A DNA stretch of 64,000 bases, from contig NZ_CP101322.1 of the NCBI RefSeq assembly GCF_024300625.1, forward strand, positions 2,431,992 through 2,495,991, read 5' to 3'. The stretch's first letter is position 1. Every line of letters starts with the position of its first letter. This document shows positions 18,190 to 35,986 of this stretch, piece by piece. The position numbers were made by a program, and so were the translations under genes. The stretch comes from Halovivax gelatinilyticus (GTDB taxonomy: Archaea; Halobacteriota; Halobacteria; Halobacteriales; Natrialbaceae). The notes beneath the pieces were generated by a model. It was not told where the DNA came from. It saw only the letters and a list, made by a program, of their open reading frames with translations, and searched no databases.

Positions 18190-18199
18190 TATTTAAATA
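18190..18199 (+). promoter_or_regulatory. TATA-like promoter element of the dioxygenase gene
   Basis: A/T-rich element ATTTAAATAA in otherwise GC-rich DNA, 36-45 bases upstream of the ATG at 18235. The spacing would give a transcript start around 18220-18225 with a very short leader. It indicates that the dioxygenase gene has its own promoter despite the amidase gene upstream. Confidence 0.5.
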
Positions 18200-18234: not shown

Positions 18235-19401
18235 ATGGGTGATTCGATCGCGGCCGTCCTCGACCGTCACGCCGTCTCGGCAGAGCGGGGTTTTCTCCCC
18301 GAGCGAGATCCGCTCGAGTCGTTCTCGGTCGATCGGTTCGGCGCGGACGAGGAGGCGACCCTGCTGGCGTACGACCGTCTCGCGGAGGAACTACCCGTGC
18401 GGTTGGAGGAGGGGACGTTTCGCGATAGCGTCGACGGGCTTTCGATCCCACCGGCGTCGCTCTACCCGTCGCTCACCGATCGGGAAGCGCGGCGGCTCTG
18501 TCTCCTGAGCGGTTTCTTCGCGAGCGCGTACGTCCACGAGATCGGTGCCGATCCGGTCTCGCACCTTCCGGAGCCGATTGCCGTCCCGCTCGTCGAAACC
18601 TCGCGGCGATTCGGTCGGAAACCGATCCTCTCTTACGACGTCCTCTGTCTGCACAACTGGCGACGGCGCGAACCGGGCGCGGACCTCACCGATCCGACGA
18701 ACCTGGAGTCTGTCGAACGGTTCACGACGCTCGACGACGAGCGGTGGTTCGTCGTCATCCACGTCGCGATCGAGGCGAGCGCCGGCGAGGCGCTTCGCGC
18801 CTGCGCTCGCGCCCAGCAAGCGGTCCGAGCGGCCGATCCCGACGCGCTCGTCGACGCGCTCGGGACGGTCGCCGATTCGATCGCCGCCCAGACGGCCATC
18901 ATGCGCCGGATGACCGAGCGCAACGACCCGGAGGCGTTCGCCCACCGGTATCGCCCGTACTACGAGGGATTCGACGACGTCGTCTACGAGGGCGTCCCCG
19001 GCTTTCGGGGCGATCCCCAGGCCTACCGCGGCGGCTCCGGCGCCCAGAGTTCGGTGTTGCCGTCGATCGACGCCGCGCTCGGGATCGACCACGCCACGAC
19101 GGAACTGATCGAGAAGCTCACCGACATGCGAAGCTACATGCCCGACGCCCACCGGGCGGTCGTCGACGCGTTCGACCGCGGCCCGGCCGTTGGTTCCTAC
19201 GTCGACGAGACCGGCCGGGACGACCTTCGAGAGGCGTACAACGCCTGTACCGAGGAACTCGCGACCTTCCGTCGCGTCCACTTCGGCCAGGTGATCCAGT
19301 ACATCCGTGCCGTCACCGGCGAGACGACCGGTACCGGCGGAACCGACTACATGCAATTTCTCCAGGAGATGCAAGAAGAGACCGCGGCCCAGAAGCGGTA
19401 A
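18235..19401 (+). CDS. indoleamine 2,3-dioxygenase family protein
   Basis: 388 residues. Hallmarks of IDO are clear: WFVVIHVAIEASAG, then GGSGAQSSVLPSIDAALGI, MRSYMPDAHRAVVDAF, the proximal haem histidine in RRVHFGQVIQYI (His349), and the C-terminal GTGGTD loop (366-371). The family opens the indole ring of L-tryptophan to N-formylkynurenine with O2 and haem. Length is normal. IDO is mostly known from eukaryotes and scattered bacteria; most prokaryotes use the unrelated-length tryptophan 2,3-dioxygenase. The kynureninase at 24527 supports tryptophan as substrate. Cytosolic, no signal peptide. Alternative indole substrates cannot be excluded. Confidence 0.9.
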   Translation: MGDSIAAVLDRHAVSAERGFLPERDPLESFSVDRFGADEEATLLAYDRLAEELPVRLEEGTFRDSVDGLSIPPASLYPSLTDREARRLCLLSGFFASAYVHEIGADPVSHLPEPIAVPLVETSRRFGRKPILSYDVLCLHNWRRREPGADLTDPTNLESVERFTTLDDERWFVVIHVAIEASAGEALRACARAQQAVRAADPDALVDALGTVADSIAAQTAIMRRMTERNDPEAFAHRYRPYYEGFDDVVYEGVPGFRGDPQAYRGGSGAQSSVLPSIDAALGIDHATTELIEKLTDMRSYMPDAHRAVVDAFDRGPAVGSYVDETGRDDLREAYNACTEELATFRRVHFGQVIQYIRAVTGETTGTGGTDYMQFLQEMQEETAAQKR

Positions 19402-19595
19402 CTGACGTAACTCACGACGATCTGTGCGCTACCTGGGACCTGTAGTGTTACTACTTCCTTCACATCAGTCGAGTTCTATGTTCAGCTCCTCGCTCGAGAC
19501 ATTGTTGGGTTTCGTCGCCGTCGGTACGTCTACAGCGATGAATGATGACCGATCAGCTTAATGACATGAATCTTGTAGAATGGATAGTCGAATTT

Positions 19596-20051
19596 TCAGA
19601 TAGTAGAGGGGTCGACTCCGAGTTGCTGAAACCAAGAGAGCGTGTCGTATTCCTCGATTCTCTCTACAATGTTTCCGTCTTTGAATCGGTCGATCATGAC
19701 GGCTGTTCCTTCAACCTCGTTGCCTGTCGGTTCGATACCCTGATACTCCCCTTCGTGTGTGGCTCGATACGATAAGTGCACGACGACGACATCATCTTCT
19801 GCTACCATCGTATGTAACGTAGCGTCGGTATCGGGGAGCGCCGAGAATCGACCTCGCATCAGATCTTTGTAATCATCTAGTCCTTCTAGTTCCATGAGTG
19901 GATCGGAGAACGTCAGGCCTTCATCCATCACGTCGTCCAAGGCGTCGAAGTCGTGAGTCGCCATCATTTCGAAGGTTCTTTCGACTGCTTTTTTGTTGGC
20001 TTCTCTGGTTTGTGCGTCGGTCGTCTCCGTAGTATCTGTGGGCTCGGGCAT
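19596..20051 (-). CDS. SnoaL-like polyketide cyclase-fold protein
   Basis: 151 residues. The cone-shaped SnoaL/NTF2-like fold is indicated by AVERTFEMMATHDFDALDDV at the N-terminus, GLDDYKDLMRGRFSALPD, VVVHLSYRATHEG and the closing DGNIVERIEEYDTLSWFQQL. Proteins of this type bind small hydrophobic ligands; the haloarchaeal ones are annotated as ester cyclases without known substrates. Start placed at ATG 20051. It opens an AT-richer stretch (about 19.4-24.4 kb) lying between the IDO and kynureninase genes. Confidence 0.8.
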   Translation of the reverse strand: MPEPTDTTETTDAQTREANKKAVERTFEMMATHDFDALDDVMDEGLTFSDPLMELEGLDDYKDLMRGRFSALPDTDATLHTMVAEDDVVVVHLSYRATHEGEYQGIEPTGNEVEGTAVMIDRFKDGNIVERIEEYDTLSWFQQLGVDPSTI

Positions 20052-20145
20052 ACAGACATAGACCACTATCTATGAGGTATTGGCCCTTCTGAGAAATCCT
20101 GTTCACTAGATCAACTGATAAAACAGGCGGACGAGAGAGGCCGTG

Positions 20146-21138
20146 TCAGCACGTACTCTCGACGACGGACAGTTTGTCATCGAAGGTCACTGTCAGTTCG
20201 TCGGGTTCATTGTTGATGGTGACCGTCACCCGAAGCGGATCGCTCGTTACTGCGGTCTGGAACTGCACTGCAATCACCTCCCCGAGTTCCCGGAATGACG
20301 ACGATAACACGTCGATATCCTGCTCGTGGAGAAACGTGATCACGGGCGTCAACCCCATAGCACACAGTTCGACCGGCAAGCGCTTCGCGTATCGACACGT
20401 GTCACAGCGGAGATCACCCCAGACAGGAAAGTCCGTCACACAGATGGTGCAGGATCGGTCACGTGTCGCATCGTGGTCCTCACAGATCGATACGGATGAC
20501 GTCAATGGACTGGCGCATTCACGACAGATCTTCCGCATCAGGTACGTCATATCCAGCATACACCGATAGTTGCCTGTCAAAAAGGCCTCGTCCGGCGTCC
20601 GATCGGTCAACCCAGCGGCCGGGAACGGGGTGTTAAAGACAGTCCCATCCGGGGTCGCATCCCCAAAATTGCCATCACAGTCAGTACACATGACCCGAAG
20701 CCACTGGTCTTCGTACACGGCCGTGAGGGTACCGCCACACACCGGGCATGGCGACTCGAGATCGTCGGGAACACTGGAATTTTGCTCCCCAGAAATCGCG
20801 ATGAGTGTTCGAAACACCTCCTTGCCGGCCCCGCTCAGTCGGTACCCCTCGTCGGTGTGTCGAACAAAGGATGGGATGAGTTGCGAGAGGTGGTAATTGA
20901 ATTGCCCGTTATCGCGAATACCGACGGCCTGTTGGAGCTCAGAAAACGAGATTGTCGTGGCGGTAGCCTCGATATCGTCGTATTCGTGGTGTGCGCCGGC
21001 TTCCCACAGGGATCTGAGGATGTCGAGGCGTGTGTCGTTGCCAAGGATAGCAAAGGCTTCATCGGGCGATAACCTCTCTAATTCGAATTCCGGACTTAAC
21101 TCGGTGCCGCCCATGCCATTCACTACCATACGAGGCAT
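20146..21138 (-). CDS. ArsR-like winged-helix regulator with zinc ribbons (paralogue)
   Basis: 330 residues with the same plan as the protein at 2146-3123. A winged helix (DEAFAILGNDTRLDILRSLW, AVGIRDNGQFNYHLSQL) is followed by zinc-ribbon cysteine pairs (CPVCGG, CTDCDG, CRECAS, CTIC, CDTC). A TATA-like GGATTATCC lies about 26 bases upstream of the first ATG, fitting a leaderless transcript from 21138; ATGs three and eight codons later are alternatives. It may regulate neighbours in the catabolic region, but nothing in the sequence proves this. Confidence 0.82.
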   Translation of the reverse strand: MPRMVVNGMGGTELSPEFELERLSPDEAFAILGNDTRLDILRSLWEAGAHHEYDDIEATATTISFSELQQAVGIRDNGQFNYHLSQLIPSFVRHTDEGYRLSGAGKEVFRTLIAISGEQNSSVPDDLESPCPVCGGTLTAVYEDQWLRVMCTDCDGNFGDATPDGTVFNTPFPAAGLTDRTPDEAFLTGNYRCMLDMTYLMRKICRECASPLTSSVSICEDHDATRDRSCTICVTDFPVWGDLRCDTCRYAKRLPVELCAMGLTPVITFLHEQDIDVLSSSFRELGEVIAVQFQTAVTSDPLRVTVTINNEPDELTVTFDDKLSVVESTC

Positions 21139-21670
21139 GTAAAGGCCACGTGTTGGCCGGATAATCCGACCGAAAAGTGGGGGAGCGAAGTAGTGGCTGT
21201 ATGTGGTGACCTACCTACGGTTGCTTCGTTGAGCAGATGGATTGATATATTCGCACATTGGATGTCGCACCGAGTTCTTCTCAAATTAACGTCAATTAGA
21301 CACGGTGGAATCGATGAGGGGGTGGAAGGTGTTCCGAATATGTATTATCATCAGAAATATATTTGAGGTCTCGCTTGATGTGTTGATACTCTGTATCTTA
21401 CACGCACGTTATGACCGCTGCCGGATAGGTTGAACGAGCCGTGCTGCATAGAGGGCGCGAACATAACACGGCGAGTATGCCTGTATAGTGAGTTTTAGGG
21501 TGGTAGTATTGAGCGAATTGATTCAAAATACGTTTGATATTGAAAAACCTTACTTAACTAACCCTCAAATCCGCGGAGGCTTTTTGAAACCGGCTTACTG
21601 CTGATTTCCTCAGCGGGAGAACGGCACCAAACCCATCGATATGCTTATATTATACGACCATTCACTCGTC
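21139..21670. other. AT-rich intergenic region without a supported gene
   Basis: About 530 bases, clearly AT-richer than the flanking genes. Stop codons are frequent in all frames. It contains the upstream region of the winged-helix gene on one side and of the lipoprotein gene on the other. No tRNA, inverted-repeat pair or transposase fragment was recognised. Confidence 0.5.
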
Positions 21671-22471
21671 ATGATGCGACGTAGAACACTTCTCGGCACC
21701 GTCGGCGCGGCGATACCCGTTACCGTCGCCGGCTGTACAGGTAGCGGTGACGATTCTGCTGATCAGCCAACTAATGGCGACGACGCTGGTTCGGAGCCGG
21801 GTGACGAAGCAGACGATAGCAGTACCGGCGATGACACCGACCCAGGTGAAGATCTGCCTGGTAAAGGAGAACTCACGACGCTCGAATCGATCACGACGGT
21901 CGACGACCGGTACGATCCCGATTCACACTCGTTCTCTGGTAGCGGTGGCGAGACAACCGACTACTTCGACCTTCGGGATTCGATCACGGTATTCATCGCC
22001 GAACACGACGGACAGGATCAATTCGGTCCAATGTTGATCGACGAGACGGGCCTGCGAGAGTTCCGGCCGATCTTAGAACACGATCCGTTCGAAGGGTCCG
22101 CGGCTATCGGTACGCCCGCGGACACCTACTACCTCGACATCGTCGCCGATGGCGACTGGTCGCTCGAACTCGCCCAGCCGGAGTCACCCGCCGACGCGAT
22201 TCACCAGCTACCCGTCGAGGTACAAGGCGAGGGCTACGACGTCGTTGGTCCCGTCCAGATCAACGGCACCGCGACGGTGCGGGGTCGACACGAAGCCGAA
22301 GGTGCCTTCGGTGTCGAGGTCCTCGACGAAGAAGGGCGAGGCGAACACGGTCAACTCGTCCCGGTCTTCAACGAATTGGGTCCGTTCGACGGGGAGGAGC
22401 ACATCGAGATCGACGCCGTCTGCTGGATTCACGTCCAGGCCGACAGTTCGTGGACGATCGAGATCGAGTAA
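21671..22471 (+). CDS. Tat-exported lipoprotein of unknown function
   Basis: 266 residues beginning MMRRRTLLGTVGAAIPVTVAG and Cys, a twin-arginine signal ending in a lipobox. An acidic, Ser/Asp/Gly-rich linker of about 50 residues follows, as in haloarchaeal surface lipoproteins. Two beta-rich repeats may follow (YFDLRDSITVFIAEHDG and LPVEVQGEGYDVVGPVQING), each ending in a WSLELA or WTIEIE strand, so the mature part is probably a duplicated beta-sandwich. Start chosen at ATG 21671; the following ATG is equally possible. No enzymatic motif. Confidence 0.75.
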   Translation: MMRRRTLLGTVGAAIPVTVAGCTGSGDDSADQPTNGDDAGSEPGDEADDSSTGDDTDPGEDLPGKGELTTLESITTVDDRYDPDSHSFSGSGGETTDYFDLRDSITVFIAEHDGQDQFGPMLIDETGLREFRPILEHDPFEGSAAIGTPADTYYLDIVADGDWSLELAQPESPADAIHQLPVEVQGEGYDVVGPVQINGTATVRGRHEAEGAFGVEVLDEEGRGEHGQLVPVFNELGPFDGEEHIEIDAVCWIHVQADSSWTIEIE

Positions 22472-22694
22472 ATTCGAAGACTTATCTCGGGATATTCCAT
22501 CTCGACTGTGGTGGCTATCGGGCTTACGGTGAGTGACATTCACTCCAGTCATGCACTGTTCCGCCGACCGGTGCCGGTACCCTACAACCAGCCGCCTTCA
22601 CTTTCGGCTGCTGTAGTGCACCCGGCCGTAGATGCCATCGGTTCGGAGTGAACCACTGTTATCCATTACAGAATCTCGGTCGTCCATTACAGTT

Positions 22695-22733
22695 GGCTCT
22701 GTTGAAACCCTTGGCTGGAGATAGGTTTCAACA
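22695..22733. repeat. hairpin resembling an insertion-sequence end
   Basis: The sequence GGCTCTGTTGAAACCC starts at 22695. TGTTGAAACC (22700-22709) and GGTTTCAACA (22724-22733) form a perfect 10-bp inverted repeat with a 14-base loop. The GGCTCTGTTGAAA start resembles terminal repeats I remember from haloarchaeal IS6-type elements, but no transposase gene is nearby. It could be a solo end or just a terminator hairpin. The 330 bases around it (22472-22803) hold no supported gene. Confidence 0.4.
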
Positions 22734-22803
22734 ATCGTGCTAATTTCAGAGCGCGAGTCTTACAGGTGGGGTAGACGGGAAGTGAAAAGCCCACGGCACT
22801 TGC

Positions 22804-23328
22804 TCAGAGCGTATGGCGGTAGACTGCCTCGGTACGTTCCTCACTGGCAAACGTTGTCGTCGTTGTTCCGTCCTGTACGAATCCGCGCCGTTCGTAGAAC
22901 GTTCGCGCACGCTCGTTGTCTGCCAGAACACTCGGTGCAATTCCGGACAGCCGAGATGGAGGAAGCGTAATGGCCTCCTTGAGGAGTTGCGTGCCGACAC
23001 CTTCGTTCCAGTACTCGGGTCGCACGTGGATGGCCGGCAGCTCGGCCTCGGATGGGGCGACGAAACTCTGGGTCTCCTCCGGAAGCCAGACGAGTTCGAT
23101 GACTCCAACAATCGTTTCACGGGAGATGGCGACGAGGAGGGCCATTTTCTCGTGTGCGAGCCGGTTGTGGATAAAATCCCGAAATTCCTCAGAAACGTCA
23201 GCATCCCAATCGAGGGCGTCTGGGGGTAAGAGCTCATCAAACGCTTCCCGTCTGCTTTCCCGCATGACCCGATATATCCCGGGCACGTCGTTGGGCTCGG
23301 GACGCCGGGTCAGTACCTCCTTTCCCAT
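22804..23328 (-). CDS. GNAT family N-acetyltransferase
   Basis: 174 residues with a complete GNAT fold. An N-terminal strand-helix VLTRRPEPNDVPGIYRVMRE is followed by VAISRETIVGVIELV. The acetyl-CoA-binding motif A region is PAIHVRPEYWNEGVGTQLLK, with the R/Q-x-x-G-x-G/A equivalent, and the ending NERARTFYERRGF is typical. Substrate unknown; GNAT enzymes acetylate amines of proteins, antibiotics or metabolites. It lies in the AT-richer accessory patch with no operon partner. Confidence 0.85.
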   Translation of the reverse strand: MGKEVLTRRPEPNDVPGIYRVMRESRREAFDELLPPDALDWDADVSEEFRDFIHNRLAHEKMALLVAISRETIVGVIELVWLPEETQSFVAPSEAELPAIHVRPEYWNEGVGTQLLKEAITLPPSRLSGIAPSVLADNERARTFYERRGFVQDGTTTTTFASEERTEAVYRHTL

Positions 23329-23689
23329 AGCCTGCAGAAACCCCGCTTCTCACAAGTAGCTTTTCCGCTGACGGCGCCGCTCGTGAGTCGATGGAGATGG
23401 AATGTGCAACGTAACCGATGCTGATATACTGTACTCATCCTCAGTATGCAGCACGTTGTTTCTGCCAGGTGTCGAAGAGGCGTTTTGTCGCTCCGGTGAC
23501 GCCTTCGCCCGAACTGAGCGATCACCCGTTCACAGATCAGGCAGGTTGTCTGTGTCACATTCGCGCTGTGAGTACAGCGTTGACTAGTTGAACCCCTTGT
23601 CGTGAGTGGTGTGACCGACGTAGCGGATGTCTTCATCAGCAACCGTTGAGGAGGAATCGAACGAGGGGTGATACGGTCAACGTGACTGC
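23329..23689. other. gene-free stretch with possible remnant reading frames
   Basis: About 360 bases. On the minus strand, around 23588-23680, a fragment reading STVADEDIRYVGHTTHDKGF ends in a stop. It looks like the tail of a former gene, but has no start. Another minus frame contains TTCLICERVI in low-complexity context. Neither is recognised. The region is best read as decayed accessory DNA. Confidence 0.35.
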
Positions 23690-24262
23690 TCAATATGAGG
23701 GAACGAGATGTCCGAGGAGCACTTTGAGATAGAGCAACGGAAGGAACCACTCGAGTCCGTGTGGGAAGATCACGACGTACAGTGCCAGCACGACTCCAAT
23801 TGTAACCAGACCCATCGCAACTGGCCGGCGCAGACGTTCTGAGACACCGAGTACGACGACGGCACTACCCAGGAGAAATCCGTACGCGACTGTGGCTTTC
23901 GCCCATGTCAGCGCAGGGAATACCGCCGCCAGAATAAACGGATGAATATGGAGTACAACAAATTGGAGCTGCGCTCTGTGACTGTGTGACGGCCTGTGCC
24001 ACCATCGACTTCCCGCGACCGTCGAAGTAGCAATGATTCCGCCTGCAATATCGAGACTGATCAGGAGAACGAGTACAATCTGGAGGGGACTCCAGCCGAG
24101 TTCGGCCACTTGCGCGTAGACGAAAACCCCGCCAGCAAAGACGAACGCGAACCCGAGGATGAGCCAATTCTCTACCCGTGTCGTATCCGGGCCAACGAGT
24201 CGATCCCAACCCCCACGTAACCCGGTTCGCGGTGGACTCGGAGGGTTCGTCCGTGAATTCAT
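23690..24262 (-). CDS. integral membrane protein of unknown function
   Basis: 190 residues with about five or six hydrophobic segments after a 30-residue proline-rich N-terminus. Segments include WLILGFAFVFAGGVFVYA and IVLVLLISLDIAGGIIA. A histidine-rich part, WWHRPSHSHRAQLQF and LHIHPFILA, lies between helices and might bind a metal or haem. Codon use is close to the host. No family recognised. It is the last gene of the accessory patch before the kynureninase gene, with 264 bases between and nothing recognisable in that gap. Confidence 0.65.
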   Translation of the reverse strand: MNSRTNPPSPPRTGLRGGWDRLVGPDTTRVENWLILGFAFVFAGGVFVYAQVAELGWSPLQIVLVLLISLDIAGGIIATSTVAGSRWWHRPSHSHRAQLQFVVLHIHPFILAAVFPALTWAKATVAYGFLLGSAVVVLGVSERLRRPVAMGLVTIGVVLALYVVIFPHGLEWFLPLLYLKVLLGHLVPSY

Positions 24263-24526
24263 GCGTATCCATCAACAGGTATCGAGATAACACCTCGGAC
24301 TGAGTCGAGACAACGAGTCCACTTCGAAGCAGGAATTCGTTCGAGATCGCCGTCCGACCGTGCCGCATTCACGCGCCGTACGCGGCGGGACGCTCGAAAC
24401 GTCTCACCGACTGCGGGTTTCGACAGGGCCGCCAGTAGCTGCGGTATCCGCGTCCGATCGAGCGGTATCGGGTCGACGAAGCCGGTTGCACCTGGACGAC
24501 CGACGACGGTACTCGTCGACCGACGT

Positions 24527-25864
24527 CTACGTCACGTCGCCCGCCGGATCGTACCGCTCGTACCGTTTCTCGTCGATGATCTCGGCGAGCGTCTCGACGA
24601 CCGCGTGGACGTCCTCGTAGCCCGTGTACAGCGGAACGGGGGCGACGCGGATGACGTTCGGTGGCCGGAAGTCGACGACGATCTCGCGGTCGCGAAGCGC
24701 CTCGCTAATGCGCATCGCCTCGGGGTGTTCGAGGGCGACGTGGCCGCCCCGGCGATCGGGATCGCGGGGCGTCCCGATCGTCACGCCGCGATCTGTCAGG
24801 TGCTCGTCGACGAGGTCGATCAGGTAGCCGGTGAGCCCGATCGACTTCTCGCGGATGGCGTCGATGCCGGCGTCGTTCACGGTCTCGAGCGCGCCGAACA
24901 GCGGGGCCGCGCTGAAGACCGGGATCGTTCCCGCCTGCCAGGCGCCGGCGTCGGCCGCCGGGGTGAACTCGAGGTTCATCTCGAACTGCGTCTCCTTGTC
25001 GTGGCCCCACCAGCCGGCGAGCGCGGGCGTCGTCTCGAAGTGCCGTTCGTTGACGTAGAGGCCGGCGACGGCGCCCGGTCCCGCGTTTAAGTACTTGTAG
25101 CCACACCAGACGGCGAAGTCGACGCCGACGTCCGAGAGGGCGTGGGGAACGACGCCGACCGAGTGAGCCAGGTCGAAGCCGGCGAGGATCCCCCGGTCGT
25201 GGGCCGCTTCGGTGATCCGCTCGACGTCGAACAGCTGGCCGCTGCGATAGAGCACCGAGGGCATGAAGACGATCCCGACGTCTTCGTCGTCCATCGCGGC
25301 CACGATGTCGTCCGTCTCGATCGTTCGGCCGTCTCGGCTCTCGACGAGGTGGAGGTGCTCGTCGGGATCGAGTCCGCGCTGGCGGAGCTGGGCCCGAATC
25401 GCGTAGTGGTCGGTCGGAAAGTCGAGGTCGTTGACGAGCACGCCGCGGTCGGCCGTCGGTCCGTCCCGTCGCTCGACGGCGTCCAGGAAGGTCCCGATCA
25501 GCGTGTGGATGTTGATCGTCGTGGAGTTGCCGACGACGACCTCGGCGGGGTCGGCGCCGACGAGCGGGGCGAGTTCCTCGCCGAGGCGCTCGCCGTACCA
25601 GAACCAGGGCGGGTCGGCTTCGGTCCAGCCGCGGATGCCCTGTTCGCGCCACTGGTCGACGGCCCGCTGGAGGCTCGCCTCGGCGGCGTCGGAGATCGGG
25701 CCGAGCGAGTTGCCGTCCATGTAGTAGGCGTCGGGGAGGTCGAACTGATCGCGATAGTCGGAAAGCGGATCGGCCTCGTCGCGTTCGCGGGCGTCCGATC
25801 GGCCCGCGTCTAGCTCGCGGTTCGCGTCGGCGCGCCCGTCCGTCGCGCCGTCGTGTTCGGTCAT
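24527..25864 (-). CDS. kynU: kynureninase
   Basis: 445 residues. PLP fold-type I kynureninase features are clear: YYMDGNSLGP near residue 48, the large-domain FDLAHSVGVVPH (Asp231, His234), the PLP lysine in CGYKYLNAGPGA (Lys257) and GWWGHD. The C-terminal domain ends VIRVAPVPLYTGYEDVHAVV. It splits L-kynurenine into anthranilate and alanine (or 3-hydroxykynurenine likewise). The N-terminal 30 residues are acidic and variable; the start at ATG 25864 is conventional. It is divergent from the alpha/beta hydrolase gene with 189 bases between, and shares the region with the IDO gene, supporting tryptophan catabolism. Confidence 0.95.
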   Translation of the reverse strand: MTEHDGATDGRADANRELDAGRSDARERDEADPLSDYRDQFDLPDAYYMDGNSLGPISDAAEASLQRAVDQWREQGIRGWTEADPPWFWYGERLGEELAPLVGADPAEVVVGNSTTINIHTLIGTFLDAVERRDGPTADRGVLVNDLDFPTDHYAIRAQLRQRGLDPDEHLHLVESRDGRTIETDDIVAAMDDEDVGIVFMPSVLYRSGQLFDVERITEAAHDRGILAGFDLAHSVGVVPHALSDVGVDFAVWCGYKYLNAGPGAVAGLYVNERHFETTPALAGWWGHDKETQFEMNLEFTPAADAGAWQAGTIPVFSAAPLFGALETVNDAGIDAIREKSIGLTGYLIDLVDEHLTDRGVTIGTPRDPDRRGGHVALEHPEAMRISEALRDREIVVDFRPPNVIRVAPVPLYTGYEDVHAVVETLAEIIDEKRYERYDPAGDVT

Positions 25865-26053: not shown

Positions 26054-27022
26054 ATGGACGAGAGCCACGCCGAATCGAGCGCGACGGATCGGGACGCGAA
26101 CGCCGAACTCGATCCGGAACTGGCGGCGGTCATCGCGGAAATCGAGGCCGCGGGCGTCCCGCAGTGGTCGTCGCTGTCGGTCGAGAGCGCCAGACGAATC
26201 GAAGACGAGGTCTTCTCCGGTGGAGCGAGTCCCGAGCTGCGAACGGTCAGGGACCTCCGCATCGACGGTCCCGGCGGTGACCTGCCGGTCAGGGTCTACC
26301 GGCCCGAGCGGGAAGACCCGCCGACGCTTGTCTTCACGCACGGCGGCGGCTGGACGCTGGGAACGCTCGATTCGGCGGACAACATCTGTCGGGAACTCGC
26401 GAGTCGAGCGGCGTGTCTGGTCGTCTCGGTCGACTATCGCCTCGCGCCGGAACACCCGTTTCCGGCCGCGACCGACGACGCCTACGCCGCCCTCGCGTGG
26501 GCGGCAGACCACGCGGCCGAACTCGGCGGCGATCCCGACCGCCTCGGCGTCGCGGGGACGAGCGCCGGCGGGAATCTCGCCGCCGCGTCGGCGATCAGGG
26601 CGCGAGATGGCGGACCGACGCTGGCCGGACAGTTCCTCCTCTACCCGATGACCGACCGCCAATTCGATCGGCCGTCGTACGCGGAACACGGCGACGGGCC
26701 GCTGCTCACGGAGGCGGACGTCCGCTGGTTCTGGGAGCAGTACCTGCGCAGTCCGGTCGACGAGCACAACCCGTTCGCGACGATCTGTCGTCACCCGGAC
26801 CTGGCCGGCGTCGCGCCCGCGACGGTGGTGACCGCGGGTCACGACGTCCTTCGTGACGAGGGTGTGGCCTACGCGGATCGGCTAGACGAGGCCGGCGTCG
26901 ACGTCGACCACGCCCACTACCCGTCGATGGCCCACGGCTTTCTGAGCCTCACCGACAGCGTCTCGCGGGCCGACGAGGCGATGGACGGGCTAGCCGAGTC
27001 TATTCGCGAACGACTCGGGTAG
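26054..27022 (+). CDS. alpha/beta hydrolase (HSL-like), candidate arylformamidase
   Basis: 322 residues. Hormone-sensitive-lipase-type motifs: HGGGW (96-100) as oxyanion hole, nucleophile Ser170 in AGTSAGGN, an acid in AGHDVLRDEG and the histidine in SMAHGF (His294). The closest general class is the esterase/acetylesterase group. Eukaryotic kynurenine formamidase has this fold and an HGGxW motif. Because the gene is divergent from kynureninase, a role in hydrolysing N-formylkynurenine is plausible but unproven. Start at ATG 26054, about 190 bases from the kynureninase start. Confidence 0.88.
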   Translation: MDESHAESSATDRDANAELDPELAAVIAEIEAAGVPQWSSLSVESARRIEDEVFSGGASPELRTVRDLRIDGPGGDLPVRVYRPEREDPPTLVFTHGGGWTLGTLDSADNICRELASRAACLVVSVDYRLAPEHPFPAATDDAYAALAWAADHAAELGGDPDRLGVAGTSAGGNLAAASAIRARDGGPTLAGQFLLYPMTDRQFDRPSYAEHGDGPLLTEADVRWFWEQYLRSPVDEHNPFATICRHPDLAGVAPATVVTAGHDVLRDEGVAYADRLDEAGVDVDHAHYPSMAHGFLSLTDSVSRADEAMDGLAESIRERLG

Positions 27023-27207: not shown

Positions 27208-28365
27208 TCAGGCGAACTCGAACAGCTCCGCCGCGGTCTCCATGTCCTTATCGCCCCGGCCGGAGAGGTTGACGAGGATGGTGTCGTGGTCGCCTTCCTC
27301 CGCCAGCTGAATCGCGCGAGCCACCGCGTGGCTCGACTCCAGTGCGGGGATGATGCCCTCGGTCTCGCTGAGTTCTCTAAACGCCGCGAGCGCGTCCTCG
27401 TCGTGGACGCCGTCGTAAGAGACGCGCCCCTCCTCCCGGAACATGGCGTGTTCGGGGCCGACGCCGGGGTAGTCGAGCCCGGCCGAGACGGAGTGAACCT
27501 CGACCTCGTCGTCGATGACGCGCGTCTTCATCCCGTGGATGACGCCGTCTCTCCCCTTCGCGAGCGGGGCCGCGTGTCGGGTCGAGTTCGCACCCTCGCC
27601 ACCGCCTTCGGCGCCGTAGAGGGCTACCTCCTCGTCGTCTCGGAAGGCGTCGAACAGCCCCATCGCGTTCGACCCGCCGCCGACGCAGGCGACCGCCGCG
27701 TCGGGGAGCCCGCCCGCTCGTTCGATGATTTGCTCTCTGGCTTCGTCTCCCAGTACCGACTGGAAGTCCCGGACCATTCGCGGGAACGGGTCCGGACCGA
27801 CGACGCTGCCGACGAGGTAGTGCGTGTCGTCGATGTTCTCGACCATGTCCTCTAGGGCGGCGTCGACGGCGTCGGCCAGCCCCTGGCCACCGCGGGTGAC
27901 CTCGTTCACCTCGGCGCCCATGAGTCGCATCCGGAAGACGTTCATCTGCTGGCGTTCGACGTCTTTTTTCCCCATGTAGATCTCCGTCTCGAGGTCGAAC
28001 AGCGCGCCGACCATCGCGGTCGCCGTCCCGTGCTGGCCGGCGCCGGTTTCTGCGATCAAGCGCTCCTTCCCGGCCTTTTTGGCCAGCAGCGCCTGTCCGA
28101 GGCAGTTGTTGATCTTGTGTGCGCCGCCGTGTAGCAGGTCCTCTCGTTTGAAGTAGATCTCCGCGTCGTAGCGGTCGCTCAGGTTCGCCGCGTGATAGAG
28201 CGACGTCGGTCTGCCGGCGTACTCGCGAAGCTGGTCGCGAAACTCGGCCTGGAAGGCCTCGCCCGTTCCGATCTCGTCGTAGGCCTCGGCCAGCTGCGAG
28301 AGCGGTTCCTCGAGCGGTTCCGGTACGTGTCTGCCGCCGTATCCGCCAAATGTGCCACTCGACAT
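27208..28365 (-). CDS. stand-alone tryptophan synthase beta subunit-like protein (TrpB)
   Basis: 385 residues. The TrpB fold is complete: the PLP lysine in HGGAHKINN (Lys84), catalytic Glu106 in [19 protein letters not shown] and [11 protein letters not shown], and the C-terminal [15 protein letters not shown]. The N-terminus [12 protein letters not shown] is shorter than usual. The segment normally GSGTLKDA is here GGQGLADA. No trpA, trpC or trpE is adjacent, so this is a separate, possibly redundant, TrpB beside kynurenine-pathway genes. It could make tryptophan from free indole and serine, or handle another amino acid side chain. It converges with the alpha/beta hydrolase gene. Confidence 0.9.
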
Positions 28366-28603
28366 GTTCGACCGGTGAATACATACCCCGCTAAATAAAG
28401 GTATGCTGTAACGTGGCATTCTCGGGCGGATGAGCGTGTCGCTCGACGCACGCCAGTGGCGGTGATTCGATCATCCGACCCGTCGCTACGCACGTTCGAC
28501 CATCGATGCACTGTATCGAACAATATTATACGATCGTGGGACTTATACTGACGATTCTGCCATGATCGTCCCTCGGACTGCCGGTTCGTCAACCGACTGC
28601 GGT

Positions 28604-28631
28604 ACAATTATGATATGTGGTGGTCAACCAC
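28604..28631 (+). promoter_or_regulatory. candidate promoter and operator of the CoA ligase gene
   Basis: TATA-like ACAATTATG (28604-28612) is followed by a perfect inverted repeat GTGGT-CA-ACCAC (28620-28631) that ends nine bases before the ATG at 28641. A repressor bound there would cover the transcript start. On the other side of the 275-base divergent gap, a TTTATTTAG box serves trpB. The assignment rests on position alone. Confidence 0.4.
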
Positions 28632-28640
28632 TCCCGTTAT

Positions 28641-30284
28641 ATGCAGGAGTCCATTCCGACCGAGATGCTCCCGGACCCCACCCATCAGCCGGACCTGTTT
28701 CACGCGTTGCCGGAGTTACACTACCCGGCGGAGCTGAACGCGGCCGTCGAGATGGTAGACCGTCACGTCGAATCTGGACGGAGCGAGGCGCCGGCGATCG
28801 TATTCGAGGGAGAGACGACCACCTACGGCGAACTGGCCGCGCGCGTCGACCGACTCGCGAACGCGTTGCTCGACCTCGGCGTCGAACCGGGCGATCGGGT
28901 CTTCGTTCGCTTTCCGAACCACCCGGAGTACGTCGTGAGCTGTCTCGCCACGCAGAAGATCGGCGCGATCACCGTTCCGTCGATGAAGTTACTCAGGGCG
29001 GCCGAGATCGGATACGTCGTCGAAGATTCCGGCGCGTCGGTCGCCATCGTCTACGACGACCTCCTCGATGAACTCGAACTCGCCATGGCGGATCACGACC
29101 TCGACTCGCTCGAGGAGATCGTTGTCGCCGAAGAAACCGGCGTCGAACACGACTATCACAGCTACCACGAACGCATCGAGGCGGCCAGCCCGGAGCTTGC
29201 CGCGCCGACGACCCGGCGAGACGACCTGGCGATGCTCGCCTACACGAGCGGGACGACCGGACAGCCGAAGGGGACGGTTCACACCCACCGTCAGCTGCTC
29301 GCCATCTGTGACGGCTACGCCCGCTACTGTCTCGATCCGACGCCCGAGGACGTGTTCGCGAGCAACGCGCCCATCGCCTTCACGTTCGGCTACGGGTTCG
29401 AGGTGGCGTTCCCGCTGCGCTTTGGCGCCACGTCGGTGCTCATCGAAGACCCCACGCCGGCGGACCTCCTCGCGGCGATCGACGATCACGACGTCTCGAT
29501 GCTCGCGTCGGTTCCGACGGCGTACAACCAGCTGTTCGCCGAACACGCGGACGAACTCGAGGCCGCCGACGTCTCCTCGCTCCGTCGGGCGGTCAGCGCC
29601 GGCGAACCGCTGCCGCCGAAGACCTACGAGCAGATCGGCGAGCACCTGGGCGTCGAGGCTTCAGACGGCATCGGCTCGACGGAGATGCTACACATCTTCA
29701 TCAGCCACCGCTATCACGACGAGATGGATCCGACGGCGACCGGATTTCCCGTCCCCGGCTACGAGGCGAAAGTGATCGATCCAGATACCGGCGAGACGCT
29801 TCCGCGCGGCGAACCGGGTCTGCTCGTCATCCGCGGACCGACGGGCGTGACCTACTGGGGGAAACCGAACGAACAGGCCGACGCCATCTTCGACGGTTGG
29901 AGCGCGCCGGGCGACATCTACGTCCACCGCGAAGACGGCCGATTCGAGTACGTTTCGCGCGCCGACGATCTGATCATCACGGGCGGCAACAACGTCGCCG
30001 GTCCCGAAGTGGAAGACGTCCTCTTAGAGCGCGAAGAAGTGTTCCAGGCGGCCGTCGTCGGCGCGCCCGACGAGAAACGCGGTCAGATCGTCAAAGCGTT
30101 CGTCGTCCTGGAAGCGGGCCACGAGGCGTCACCAACACTCACCGAGGCGCTACAGGAGTACGTCAAGGGCCAGATCGCCCCCTACAAGTACCCCCGAGAG
30201 ATCGAGTACTTAGAGAAACTGCCCACGACCGAGACCGGCAAGATCCAGCGGGCGAAACTCCGCGAGCGCGAGACGGAGTCGTAA
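28641..30284 (+). CDS. AMP-forming aryl-CoA ligase, 2-aminobenzoate-CoA ligase-like
   Basis: 547 residues, complete adenylate-forming fold. P-loop YTSGTTGQPKG (201-211), the aromatic/acyl pocket FGYGFEVAFPLRFGA, the A5 motif GIGSTEMLHIF, hinge region ADDLIITGGNNVAGPEVE and the catalytic C-terminal lysine in TTETGKIQR (Lys534). The GSTEMLHIF sequence and overall style resemble benzoate- and 2-aminobenzoate-CoA ligases more than acetyl-CoA synthetase. Anthranilate from kynureninase would be the natural substrate. It is divergent from trpB. Start ATG 28641 chosen because the preceding in-frame codons are unlike the family. Confidence 0.82.
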   Translation: MQESIPTEMLPDPTHQPDLFHALPELHYPAELNAAVEMVDRHVESGRSEAPAIVFEGETTTYGELAARVDRLANALLDLGVEPGDRVFVRFPNHPEYVVSCLATQKIGAITVPSMKLLRAAEIGYVVEDSGASVAIVYDDLLDELELAMADHDLDSLEEIVVAEETGVEHDYHSYHERIEAASPELAAPTTRRDDLAMLAYTSGTTGQPKGTVHTHRQLLAICDGYARYCLDPTPEDVFASNAPIAFTFGYGFEVAFPLRFGATSVLIEDPTPADLLAAIDDHDVSMLASVPTAYNQLFAEHADELEAADVSSLRRAVSAGEPLPPKTYEQIGEHLGVEASDGIGSTEMLHIFISHRYHDEMDPTATGFPVPGYEAKVIDPDTGETLPRGEPGLLVIRGPTGVTYWGKPNEQADAIFDGWSAPGDIYVHREDGRFEYVSRADDLIITGGNNVAGPEVEDVLLEREEVFQAAVVGAPDEKRGQIVKAFVVLEAGHEASPTLTEALQEYVKGQIAPYKYPREIEYLEKLPTTETGKIQRAKLRERETES

Positions 30285-31827: not shown

Positions 31828-32201
31828 CGGCATCTCCGACGGCGTCGCTCGGTTCGAATCGAATCGGTCGATTACCGCGGAGCGCTCGTCTCGCCCCGGA
31901 TTCGATCGTCGAACCGGGTCGAGGTGCGTTTCGCTCGTCGGTGATCGTCGAACGACGTTCCGAGGCAGATGCGACTGGCGACGGCACGTAACGGAGCGAG
32001 TCTGGAGCGACTTCGACCGATTGGCAACGGACGTCGGGTGAACTGATGGTCGATCGTAGCGATTCACTCGCACAAATACATCCGATCGGACGTAGGTATT
32101 TTACAGAACTTCCTTCAATTTTGGCACTCTCTAGGTGATACGTTGGTCTCCTTTTGCATTTGACCGGAATCCTTTTTGAACAGTCGTTCTATTGTGGGGT
32201 G
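31828..32201. other. intergenic region upstream of the ABC transporter binding protein
   Basis: About 370 bases. The first half has only short antisense frames with arginine- and serine-rich translations typical of noncoding GC-rich DNA. The last 100 bases are AT-rich, with TATTTTACAG near 32097 and TTTTTGAACAG near 32173; either may be the promoter of the binding-protein gene. Nothing else is seen. Confidence 0.4.
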
Positions 32202-33428
32202 ATGGCAAACGACACATCACGGACGCCGGTCGCTGGCGTTCGGCGTCGAACGATGCTGAAGGGGACAGGCGTTGCCGGCGTCTCGATGCTCGCCGGCTGT
32301 CTCGGTGGAGACGATGACGGCATTACGATCGGTGCCCTGCAGCCACTATCGGGTAATTTCGCGGCGTGGGGCGCCGCCCACGAGGCCGGTCTTGAGTTCG
32401 CCGTCGACGAGGTCAACGAGGAAGGATTTCTCGACGAGGAGGTGACCGTCGAATCCACCGATACGGAAAGCGATGCAGGCGACGCCGCGACGGCGTTTCG
32501 CCGTTTCGTCGAGGAAGACGGAGCCGTCGGCATTACGGGACCGGTCTCGAGCGACGTGGGGGTCCGGACGGCCCAGATCGCCGAAGAACTCGAGACGCCG
32601 ATGGTCTTACACATGGCGGGGACCCACCAGCTTCACACCACCCAATCGCAGTACTCGTTTCGGCTCGGATCGCTTCCCGCCCCGATGGACTTACAGCCCC
32701 AGGCCGACCTCATCGAGGAACGAGGTTACGAAACGATCGGTGCGATCGTCGCCGACTACGAGTGGGGGCGGACGGTCGAAGACCAGATCGAGGAACTGTT
32801 TCCGGCAGGAATCGACCTGACGGTCGAGGTTACCCCGCTCGGGGAGAGCGAGTTCACCCCGTACCTGCGGGATATGCCCGACGACCTGGACCTGCTCGTC
32901 GCCACCGGCCACCCACCGGGTTCCATCTCGATCCACGCACAATCCCGTGAGATCGGGTTAGAACACGAGCTGACGACGGGGGCCGGGTTGCCACCGAACG
33001 TGATATACGAGGCACTCGGTGAGCACGCAGAGACGTTCGCACACCTTCACGTAACGGACGTCTACGGGGATGCGTTCGCCGACGTGGCGAGTCGGTTCGC
33101 CGACGAACGCGGCGAACAGATGTCGACCCACGAAGGATACGGCTACATCGCCGGGCGCGTCTTCGCCGAAGCGATCGACACGGCCGACTCGACGGATTCG
33201 ACGGAGATCGCGGCCGCGATTCGCGATATCGAGTACGAGACGATCCTGGCGAACCCGCTCCGGTACAACGACTGGGGCGAGATCGACGACGTAAGCGCCT
33301 TCTTTAGTACGCTACACGAGGGCGGACCGGAGTACTTCCCGGACGGGGACTTCCACTTAGAAGAAGAGTACCAGAGCGATCCGATGTCGGCCGACCTCGT
33401 CGAACCGCTCGTCGACGACGAGCGGTAG
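32202..33428 (+). CDS. branched-chain amino acid-type ABC transporter substrate-binding lipoprotein
   Basis: 408 residues. Twin-arginine signal with RRR (14-16) and lipobox LAGC (Cys33). The mature part is a type I periplasmic-binding fold of the LivJ/AmiC type: ITIGALQPLSGNFAAWGAAH, GITGPVSSDVGVRTAQIAEE and the hinge segment GAIVADYEWGRTVEDQ. LivJ-type proteins bind amino acids, amides, urea or aromatic acids. It faces the livF/livG pair convergently and must work with the permeases at 35129-37110. Ligand unknown; given the neighbourhood, an aromatic amino acid or aminobenzoate is a possibility. Confidence 0.88.
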   Translation: MANDTSRTPVAGVRRRTMLKGTGVAGVSMLAGCLGGDDDGITIGALQPLSGNFAAWGAAHEAGLEFAVDEVNEEGFLDEEVTVESTDTESDAGDAATAFRRFVEEDGAVGITGPVSSDVGVRTAQIAEELETPMVLHMAGTHQLHTTQSQYSFRLGSLPAPMDLQPQADLIEERGYETIGAIVADYEWGRTVEDQIEELFPAGIDLTVEVTPLGESEFTPYLRDMPDDLDLLVATGHPPGSISIHAQSREIGLEHELTTGAGLPPNVIYEALGEHAETFAHLHVTDVYGDAFADVASRFADERGEQMSTHEGYGYIAGRVFAEAIDTADSTDSTEIAAAIRDIEYETILANPLRYNDWGEIDDVSAFFSTLHEGGPEYFPDGDFHLEEEYQSDPMSADLVEPLVDDER

Positions 33429-33508
33429 TGTCGACCGAAACGGTGTCCTCGTTGAACCGTAAACTGTCGCCTCTCTGATCCGAAAACCGTCTTCTCGTTG
33501 AATCGTGG

Positions 33509-34219
33509 TTACTTACGCAGGTACGCGTTTCGCACTCGATCGCTCTCGAGGAGCGTGGCTGCGTCATCGGCTGCAACGATACGGCCGTTCTCGATCACGT
33601 ACGCGCGTTCGGCCAGTTCGAGCGCCTTGTGTACGTGCTGTTCGGTGAGCAGTATCGTGATCTCCTCGCTGATCTCGGATACCTTTTCGAAGACGCGCTC
33701 GACGAGTTGCGGTGCGAGTCCGACCGACAGTTCGTCCAGCGCGAGGACGCTGGGTTTCGCCATGAGTCCACGTCCGATCGCGAGCATCTGCTGTTCGCCG
33801 CCGCTCAACGTCCCGGCGCGCTGTTGGCGTCGCTCTCCGAGGACCGGAAAGAGGTCGTATACCTCCCTTGCAGTACGTTCTCGCTCGGATCGCTGGGTGT
33901 ACGCGCCCATTTCTAAATTCTCCGCAACGGTCATTTCGGTGAAGAGGTTGCGGGCTTCGGGAACCTGGACGAACCCACGTTTGACGATTTGATCGGGCCG
34001 CAACGCCGACCCATCCTCTCCGAAGAGGGTGATCGACCCGTCTTCGATCGAGTGTAATCCCGAGAGAACCTGTAACAGCGTCGTCTTCCCGGCGCCATTT
34101 GGCCCGACGAGCGCGACGACTCGATCGGACTCGGTTATCTCGATCGAGACGTCCCACAACACCTGGAGATCGCCGTAGTAGACGTCGATATTCTCCGCTC
34201 GAATCAGCGACTCGGTCAT
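33509..34219 (-). CDS. livF: ABC transporter ATPase, LivF type
   Basis: 236 residues. Walker A is GPNGAGKTT (39-47), the signature LSGGEQQ and Walker B VLALDELSVGL, followed by the switch histidine in LLTEQHVH. Length and VQVPEARNLFTEMTVAENL segment are typical of LivF. The ATG overlaps the livG stop by four bases, so the two ATPases are translationally coupled. It energises import through the LivHM channel at 35129-37110. Confidence 0.92.
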   Translation of the reverse strand: MTESLIRAENIDVYYGDLQVLWDVSIEITESDRVVALVGPNGAGKTTLLQVLSGLHSIEDGSITLFGEDGSALRPDQIVKRGFVQVPEARNLFTEMTVAENLEMGAYTQRSERERTAREVYDLFPVLGERRQQRAGTLSGGEQQMLAIGRGLMAKPSVLALDELSVGLAPQLVERVFEKVSEISEEITILLTEQHVHKALELAERAYVIENGRIVAADDAATLLESDRVRNAYLRK

Positions 34220-34938
34220 ACGCCACCTCCGAGATACGCCTCGAGAACGCGTTCGTTTTGCTGGATTGCCGACGGTTTGCCGTCGGCGATGAGCGATCCC
34301 TCGTTGAGAACGAGCAGGCGGTCTGTCGTTCCCATGATCGCCTCGACGACGTGTTCGATCCACAGCACCGAGATGCCGAGTTCGTCCCGGATCCGTTCGA
34401 TTGTCGCCGTGAGCTCGTCGATCTCCGCCGGCGTCAGTCCACTCCCGATCTCGTCTAAGAGCAACAGTTTCGGGTCGCACGCGAGCGCCCGGGCGAGTTC
34501 GACGTGCTTTCGCTGGGCCATTGGTAACTCGTGAGCGTCGGTCTCCGCCTGTCCGTCGAGTCCAACGAACTCGATCATTCGATGTGCGTGATCGGTCGCC
34601 TCGTCGATCGATCGAGTAGCCTCCGCACCGAAGACGGCCCCGGTGAGAACGTTCTCGAGGACGGTCGACTCGTCGAAGGTCCGAACGATCTGGAACGTTC
34701 GAACGATGCCGTGGCCACAGATCTCGTTGGGTTTCGACCCGGTGATCGTCGTTCCGTCGAATCGAACGGTCCCGGAATCCGGGGTGTAGATTCCGTTGAT
34801 GACGTTGAAGAGTGTCGTCTTTCCGGCGCCGTTTGGCCCGATCAATCCGACGATCTCCGCGTCACCGACTGAAACACTCACGTCGTCGACGGCCACGAGT
34901 CCGCCGAATGTCTTGGTGACACCGGAGAGTTCGAGCAT
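34216..34938 (-). CDS. livG: ABC transporter ATPase, LivG type, with altered signature motif
   Basis: 240 residues from ATG 34938. Walker A GPNGAGKTT is intact, Q-loop and Walker B (LLLLDEIGSGL) are present, and the switch region is VLWIEHVVEAIM. The signature normally LPYGQQRR-like in LivG reads LPMAQRKHVE here, losing the glycine of the LSGGQ-type motif. Other Liv family markers (NVINGIYTPDSG) are normal. Upstream it shares a 190-base divergent promoter region with livH. Works with LivF as the ATPase pair. Confidence 0.9.
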   Translation of the reverse strand: MLELSGVTKTFGGLVAVDDVSVSVGDAEIVGLIGPNGAGKTTLFNVINGIYTPDSGTVRFDGTTITGSKPNEICGHGIVRTFQIVRTFDESTVLENVLTGAVFGAEATRSIDEATDHAHRMIEFVGLDGQAETDAHELPMAQRKHVELARALACDPKLLLLDEIGSGLTPAEIDELTATIERIRDELGISVLWIEHVVEAIMGTTDRLLVLNEGSLIADGKPSAIQQNERVLEAYLGGGV

Positions 34939-35128
34939 AGCGAGGCGAAAACGCTCGACCACCAAATAGTTTTTTGCGATATATCGCCCTGGCGTCCCGA
35001 TCGGGCCGACGCGGCAAATTCCGACGAACCACACCCTGTTCCGTTCTCGTTGGATAATTTCGGCGTGCTAGTAATATGCATATTTCGGTAAAGTATAAGC
35101 ACCGGTCGGCGAAAGTACCCGGAAGTTG
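34939..35128. promoter_or_regulatory. divergent promoter region of livGF and livHM
   Basis: 190 AT-rich bases between the two transcription units. Towards livG (minus strand) lies the box CGCAAAAAACTATTT, about 30-45 bases from its ATG. Towards livH (plus strand) GTAAAGTATAAGC lies about 30-40 bases upstream of ATG 35129. The region also has TATGCATATTT near 35074. A single regulator could control all four transport genes from here. Confidence 0.5.
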
Positions 35129-35986
35129 ATGGAGGTCCTCACACTCGCCGAAATCGCCGTCGATGCCCTCGCGAGAGGGTTGTTGTTCGCCCTCCTCGGT
35201 GCCGGAATAACGCTGGTGTTCGGGCTCGGTAACGTGTTGAACCTCTCACTCGGGGTCTTCGCCGTCATCGCCGTCATCGTCGGGAGCGAACTGGTCCCGG
35301 TGGTGCCAAACGCCGCCATCGCGGCGATCTGTGGCATCGTTGCCGTCGCCGCACTCGGCCTGGCGACGGACCGCGCCCTCCTCTCGAGCGTCTATCGATC
35401 CGACGGCGAAGAACGCATTCTACTCGGGATTTTCGTCACGCTCGGACTGGCCATCATGCTCGACGGCCTGTTGTACGCCGAATACCCGCTCCAGTACGGG
35501 ATCCCCCACGGCGTCGACACCATGACCGTCGCCGGCGTGATGATTCGTGGATCGTCGTTGGTGGTTATCGTCGTCGCCGCTTCGATCCTGCTCGCCTTAT
35601 TTTTGTTTCTCCGTCGGACGACCCTCGGCAATGCGACACGCACGATCTTCCAGGACGAGACCGGTGCGCTTCTCTGTGGGATCAATCCCCGTCGAATTCG
35701 GAGCCTGATTTTCGTTCTTAGCGTTTCGCTCGCCGGGGTTGCCGGTATTCTCTGGAGCCTTCAATCGACCGTCGGCGCCGAATCGGCCTTCGAATTTACC
35801 ATCTACGCGATCATCGTCTCCATCGTTGGCGGCGTCAGAAACATCGAAGGGACCATCGTCGCGGGCCTGTTGCTCGGCTTTATAAGCGTCTTCGGAAACT
35901 ACTTTATCGGCTCGTACGAGGCGATGATCCTGTTGTTCGCATTCGCCGTCGCCGTGCTGATTATTCGACCGGAGGAGGTTGCATGA
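35129..35986 (+). CDS. livH: ABC transporter permease, LivH type
   Basis: 285 residues with about eight hydrophobic helices. LivH hallmarks are GLLFALLGAGITLVFGLGNV at the N-terminus and the conserved GGVRNIEGTIVAGLLLG near the C-terminus. It forms half of the membrane channel of a high-affinity amino-acid-type importer. ATG 35129 is preferred over TTG 35126. Its stop overlaps the livM start by four bases (ATGA). Confidence 0.92.
   Translation: MEVLTLAEIAVDALARGLLFALLGAGITLVFGLGNVLNLSLGVFAVIAVIVGSELVPVVPNAAIAAICGIVAVAALGLATDRALLSSVYRSDGEERILLGIFVTLGLAIMLDGLLYAEYPLQYGIPHGVDTMTVAGVMIRGSSLVVIVVAASILLALFLFLRRTTLGNATRTIFQDETGALLCGINPRRIRSLIFVLSVSLAGVAGILWSLQSTVGAESAFEFTIYAIIVSIVGGVRNIEGTIVAGLLLGFISVFGNYFIGSYEAMILLFAFAVAVLIIRPEEVA

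Follow-up and report, generated by a model that had tools for sequence, protein, structure and literature searches.

An IDO-family gene and a split kynurenine cassette in the haloarchaeon Halovivax gelatinilyticus

INTRODUCTION

Indoleamine 2,3-dioxygenases (IDOs) are haem enzymes by which animals and fungi open the ring of tryptophan, and IDO has been investigated mainly as an animal immune enzyme. The initial annotation of a 64,000-nucleotide stretch of the Halovivax gelatinilyticus genome (contig NZ_CP101322.1, positions 2,431,992 to 2,495,991; the whole stretch is hereafter called the window) proposed that one of its genes encodes an archaeal IDO standing in place of tryptophan 2,3-dioxygenase (TDO). 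The locus therefore raises two questions: whether the protein belongs to the IDO family, and whether it starts the degradation of tryptophan. The second is not trivial. Distant IDOs have been doubted as true tryptophan dioxygenases because the purified ones are slow; among characterised IDOs, those from two of the family's three branches, the enzyme of the alphaproteobacterium Erythrobacter litoralis among them, act very slowly on tryptophan, and the active branch comprises mammals, fungi, Gemmatimonas and S. scabiei (PMC4217691). Among openly accessible papers, we found none relevant to haloarchaeal IDO or kynurenine pathways. The family is already known and RefSeq names several haloarchaeal proteins IDO, and the family assignment is therefore ordinary; what is notable is the archaeal setting, the transferable kynurenine cassette and a TDO-like distal histidine.

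FOLD AND HAEM POCKET

The open reading frame begins with ATG and runs through 388 codons without an internal stop (Table 1), and its product is an IDO-family enzyme. Among the Pfam profiles, PF01231 alone matches the protein (residues 10–357, E 1.3e-77, 261.8 bits against a curated cut-off of 26 bits), with no match to the TDO profile PF03301, and a single-sequence search of the PDB retrieves human IDO1 at about E 1e-39. The features from which the initial annotation had argued, AQSSV (within GAQSSV, 269–274), YMPDAHR (301–307), the haem histidine (His349) and GTGGTD, are all found in the translation, and the protein is indeed longer than a bacterial TDO such as 2nox, which has 281 residues. 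Its place in the IDO family is borne out by the profile, the fold and the pocket residues.

An AlphaFold2 model built from an alignment of eight sequences reached a pLDDT of 87.9 and a pTM of 0.88; an earlier model from two sequences (pLDDT 53.8) was poor and was set aside. The predicted fold is that of IDO. Its best matches in the PDB are human IDO1 and IDO2, including L-Trp complexes (TM 0.88 over 386–391 columns, rmsd 2.1–2.5 Å), and among the fold matches listed the best 50 are human IDO1 or IDO2 without exception, with no PrnB among them.

Table 1. Positions of the features discussed, counted from the first nucleotide of the window
Feature	Position	Strand	Basis
IDO family protein, 388 aa	18235..19401	+	ORF, Pfam, PDB match, fold
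TATA-like box TATTTAAATA, 36 bp before the IDO ATG	18190..18199	+	sequence; TTTAWATA count
Codon of distal His176 (human IDO1 Ser167 position)	18760..18762	+	alignment
Codon of Arg240 (human IDO1 Arg231)	18952..18954	+	alignment
GGSGAQSS loop, G266–S273 (human GGSAGQSS)	19030..19053	+	alignment
Codon of putative proximal haem ligand His349 (human His346)	19279..19281	+	alignment
GTGGTD motif, residues 366–371	19330..19347	+	translation, alignment
AT-richer block separating IDO from kynureninase; limits approximate	19450..24480	.	GC, comparison with other Halovivax
Kynureninase KynU; start inferred at MTEHDG	24527..25864	-	TIGR01814 371 bits (cut-off 246), PF22580
Alpha/beta hydrolase, HSL family (HGGGW, GTSAG); candidate N-formylkynurenine formamidase	26054..27022	+	PF07859, NF058653
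Second TrpB paralogue; true start probably near 28365	27208..28419	-	TIGR00263 549 bits
Benzoate-CoA ligase family AMP-forming ligase; candidate anthranilate-CoA ligase	28617..30284	+	TIGR02262 381.6 bits (cut-off 375.25)
Liv-type ABC transporter: binding protein, two ATPases on the minus strand, two permeases	32154..37110	.	profile matches

At about 30% identity, the Halovivax protein shares with human IDO1 and IDO2 not only the fold but also the proximal histidine, the substrate arginine, the Ser263 position and the GTGGT loop; the Halovivax gene differs in sitting in a prokaryotic catabolic cassette. Arg240 corresponds to human Arg231, which binds the substrate carboxylate, and GTGGTD is the flexible loop that closes on the substrate. 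Tyr126, Phe163 and Phe226 of human IDO1 are also retained in the alignment, in which Phe227 is replaced by Ala, Phe164 by Val, and Cys129/Val130 by Leu/Cys. Across the relatives aligned, the proximal histidine is invariant, and the arginine, GTGGT and a Ser or Thr at the 263 position are kept. The alignment thus gives no sign of the pocket loss that the initial annotation had named as an argument against IDO, and the protein is predicted to bind haem.

A HISTIDINE ON THE DISTAL SIDE

The distal residue, on which the initial annotation did not comment, is His176, the histidine of TDO and MarE, instead of the serine found in human IDO1, and the distal helix reads F-V-V-I-H-V-A-I-E against the human F-F-L-V-S-L-L-V-E. 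A distal serine is a trait of animal IDO1, and membership of the IDO family does not require it. All 15 haloarchaeal relatives carry the distal histidine, as do three alphaproteobacterial plasmid proteins and six complete viral-contig relatives, the last of which were retrieved with a pattern that already includes this residue. Because the histidine occurs in all prokaryotic relatives sampled, it is a trait shared across this prokaryotic part of the family and not a peculiarity of the Halovivax gene. The proteobacterial homologues of Methylocystis and Sphingobium (35–37% identity) resemble the Halovivax protein in the distal histidine, the GTGGT loop and the proximal histidine, but have no kynureninase nearby. 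With the haloarchaeal IDO, nature itself provides a test of how exchanging the distal Ser for His affects the enzyme. In MarE, replacing the distal histidine cuts substrate affinity about 20-fold (PMC11904535).

The likeness to MarE bears on the nature of the enzyme itself. The MarE distal helix, F-Q-V-T-H-L-I-T-E as read from the H55A primer, has the same F-x3-H-x3-E pattern around its H55 (PMC11904535), and a degree of monooxygenase activity is known for IDO too (PMC12921851), so that a PrnB- or MarE-like haem enzyme catalysing a monooxygenation or a rearrangement instead of a dioxygenation could be imagined. PrnB belongs with IDO to the same superfamily of haem-dependent aromatic oxygenases, but shares less than 20% identity with it and performs other chemistry (PMC11791213). 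We regard such an enzyme as scarcely credible here. A profile of these IDO-family proteins matches human IDO at about 1e-73 to 1e-77 and PrnB at only E 0.1, the loop is GTGGT of the IDO/TDO kind where MarE has SLGGR (PMC11904535), and a kynureninase lies in the same cassette. A PrnB-like identity, which the initial annotation had raised as the outcome that would overturn its proposal, was rejected on these profile scores and on the fold matches listed. TDO 2nox aligns with the same profile over 52 residues only (E 0.0085); TDO, which probably catalyses the same reaction, differs from the Halovivax IDO in family, length and architecture.

THE KYNURENINE CASSETTE

The genes around the IDO gene, which the initial annotation had left aside, suggest a route. 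In the proposed scheme, the IDO would use its haem to open the indole ring, converting L-tryptophan and O2 to N-formylkynurenine. Deformylation by the alpha/beta hydrolase encoded in the cassette would then yield kynurenine, from which the kynureninase, an enzyme expected of a kynurenine-to-anthranilate cluster and present in the window, would release alanine and anthranilate. Finally, the CoA ligase would turn anthranilate into anthraniloyl-CoA, activating it for degradation. The IDO would stand where many bacteria have TDO. Since genes for the steps that follow lie in the same cassette, the IDO most likely starts tryptophan degradation, and we consider it probable that a haem-dependent IDO initiates a pathway running through the cassette to anthraniloyl-CoA. 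The cassette is the main argument for a true tryptophan dioxygenase; that tryptophan is the true substrate, and that the hydrolase and the ligase act as proposed, we infer.

For the second step, the hydrolase is the strongest candidate for a formamidase, because alpha/beta hydrolases act as arylformamidase in many eukaryotes (PMC4217691) and no KynB-type cyclase/formamidase was found in the Halovivax genome. NCBIfam names it a relative of hormone-sensitive lipase, and the formamidase role is therefore putative. Of 18 IDO-less loci, 13 likewise have the hydrolase adjoining kynureninase, as do most haloarchaeal loci read. The amidase adjoining the IDO gene (16501–18009) was also considered as the formamidase and was rejected, being conserved neither beside IDO nor beside kynU. 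A search for 3-hydroxyanthranilate dioxygenase gave no match, and its controls likewise gave none. The Liv-type ABC transporter is a possible importer for the pathway; in Natronococcus (G264), too, a Liv-type binding protein and ATPases come after the cassette.

Some observations speak against the proposed scheme: slow IDO branches are known, the proteobacterial relatives have no kynureninase nearby, Phe227 is replaced by Ala, and a Halovivax genome (G208) has the other cassette genes but no IDO. The protein could be an IDO fold from a low-activity branch that opens another indole (tryptamine, 5-hydroxytryptophan or a modified Trp), with the kynureninase acting on a substituted kynurenine. The existence of low-activity branches (PMC4217691) and a distal pocket unlike that of human IDO1, with His176 and with Ala at the Phe227 position, would fit this reading, which is nevertheless rather improbable, as the linkage to kynureninase and hydrolase recurs with no indole-modifying gene conserved beside it, and the substrate Arg and the GTGGT loop are retained.

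In addition to a TrpB encoded elsewhere in the genome, a further complete copy is repeatedly met within the IDO/kynU cassette or close to it. This holds for the window, whose genome has its other TrpB at C1:725945, and for L026, L028–L031, L040, L041, L074, L090 and L092.

Its presence in most Natrialbaceae and also in Haladaptatus clusters could be explained by indole salvage, in which the cassette TrpB would join external indole and serine to tryptophan, and IDO and KynU would carry it on to anthranilate. We find this quite improbable: in three genomes (G239, G180 and G071), the stretches read have no TrpB beside IDO, and indole uptake is without direct support. Tryptophan degradation started by the IDO remains the preferred reading of the cassette.

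DISTRIBUTION AMONG HALOARCHAEA

A class-wide profile search covered 292 genomes of class Halobacteria from 77 genera. IDO occurs in 12 of these genomes (8 genera), and TDO (PF03301) in none of the 292, including H. gelatinilyticus, although two control genomes gave a match. With no TDO in any haloarchaeon sampled, the description of an IDO in place of TDO fits. Kynureninase exceeds its cut-off in 135 of the 292 genomes. It is present in 11 of the 12 with IDO against 124 of the 280 without (Fisher p 0.0012, an optimistic value given that the genomes are related), and in 10 of the 12 it lies within 10 kb of the IDO gene, in six within about 300 bp. On the Haladaptataceae plasmids (Haladaptatus and Halomicrococcus), kynU stands beside IDO in all four cases. 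Apart from the cassette copy, G264 and G251 each possess another kynureninase.

The IDO cassette is mobile and often borne on megaplasmids. The RefSeq-named haloarchaeal IDOs share 63–65% identity with the Halovivax protein in Natrialbaceae (Natronococcus, Natronosalvus) and 41–42% in Haladaptatus, and lie in the same cassette; they are found on megaplasmids near kynU, whereas the Halovivax gene is on the 3.7-Mb main contig, 5 kb from kynU. That a haloarchaeal IDO shares a transferable and repeatedly found cassette with kynureninase, within a class lacking TDO, provides a strong context for a true catabolic role.

One cassette may branch differently. Kynureninase is missing from the genome G119 (L029, C7), which keeps IDO and the hydrolase; in the vicinity of its IDO lie genes for an aminotransferase, the alpha subunit of a Rieske dioxygenase and a dihydrodiol dehydrogenase resembling HcaB/BphB. 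These neighbours possibly represent transamination to kynurenate followed by ring hydroxylation, an archaeal kynurenate (quinoline) route. If this is right, IDO and the hydrolase would form a common upstream module with kynureninase as one of two exits, kynurenine would be common to both settings, and the occurrence of that module in both would argue that the product of IDO is N-formylkynurenine.

The hydrolase–kynureninase pair may also have had a life of its own, as a salvage module for N-formylkynurenine and kynurenine arising from light- or radical-driven tryptophan oxidation (or for imported kynurenine), to which a mobile IDO was added later in a few lineages. We consider this unlikely; if true, a module for repair or scavenging would have become a pathway dedicated to degrading tryptophan once it gained IDO, an enzyme that combines the IDO fold with a distal histidine like that of TDO.

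More than 120 of the 292 haloarchaea possess kynureninase, usually beside the same hydrolase, and have neither IDO nor TDO (e.g. L075–L089, L091 and L093), which exposes a gap, as these organisms carry kynureninase without a known kynurenine-making enzyme. The conserved neighbours of kynU in IDO-less genomes include no alternative dioxygenase. Elsewhere in the same phylum, two loci (L097 and L098, of G473 and G406) match the C-terminal portion of the IDO profile weakly, below its cut-off, and contain an in-frame TGA.

THE SPLIT CASSETTE AND THE PROMOTER REGION

Where other Halovivax carry IDO, the gene converges with kynU at a distance of about 220 bp (<250 bp), against 5 kb in the window. The intervening block has a GC content of 49–61%, compared with 60–72% in the flanks, and its ORFs encode SnoaL-like, HTH regulator (DUF7347/DUF7351), lipoprotein, GNAT and membrane proteins. 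Its low GC content and its absence from the other IDO-bearing Halovivax make it likely to be an insertion. A search for mobile-element repeats at its ends found only short, chance-like repeats.

The gene has, as the initial annotation had noticed, a TATA-like box of its own. The pattern TTTAWATA has no second site in the window (0.11 expected per shuffle), and the sequences preceding the orthologous genes do not conserve the box. At about the same position, six Natrialbaceae IDO genes (L026, L027, L028, L030, L031 and L032) are preceded by an imperfect palindrome, ATGTGTC-N7-GGAYAAAT (two mismatches at most), which in the stretches read occurs mainly 5' of IDO and is possibly an operator or a promoter. 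It is absent from the H. gelatinilyticus window. The split of the cassette and the missing palindrome could suggest that the 5-kb insertion stranded a gene that is now degenerate or unexpressed. Such an outcome is very improbable for an intact ORF with all pocket residues, its own TATA-like box and 73% identity to the IDO of H. asiaticus.

EVOLUTION

The initial annotation had suggested that phylogeny could reveal a bacterial or eukaryotic origin, a question that the tree answers in part. The haloarchaeal IDOs group as a single clade, supported at 91/99 when human IDO1 is included and at 100/99 when it is left out, and have the distal histidine in common with the bacterial relatives; the donor cannot be named from a tree that is thinly sampled outside haloarchaea (besides human IDO1, three bacterial and six viral-contig proteins). 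The clade has two subgroups, Haladaptataceae with G081 and Natrialbaceae with G180. Because G081 and G180 belong to other families (f4 and f3) than the window genome (f1), these groupings point to transfer. In the kynureninase tree, the Natrialbaceae cassette copies likewise group with the G180 copy (97/97), indicating that IDO and kynU moved as a unit, at least there.

A Halovivax genome without IDO (G208) retains TrpB, the hydrolase, kynureninase and an acyl-CoA dehydrogenase in the same order. Its kynureninase is nested inside the Natrialbaceae cassette group, which is consistent with IDO loss, and the remaining genes indicate that the cassette can serve without IDO.

Full-length IDO homologues with the distal histidine also occur on six IMG/VR contigs of 58–511 kb that are classed as viral (L100–L105). 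One of them, the L103 homologue, has no match in named phage records, and adjoins a PD-(D/E)XK/Cas4-like nuclease and a Toprim protein.
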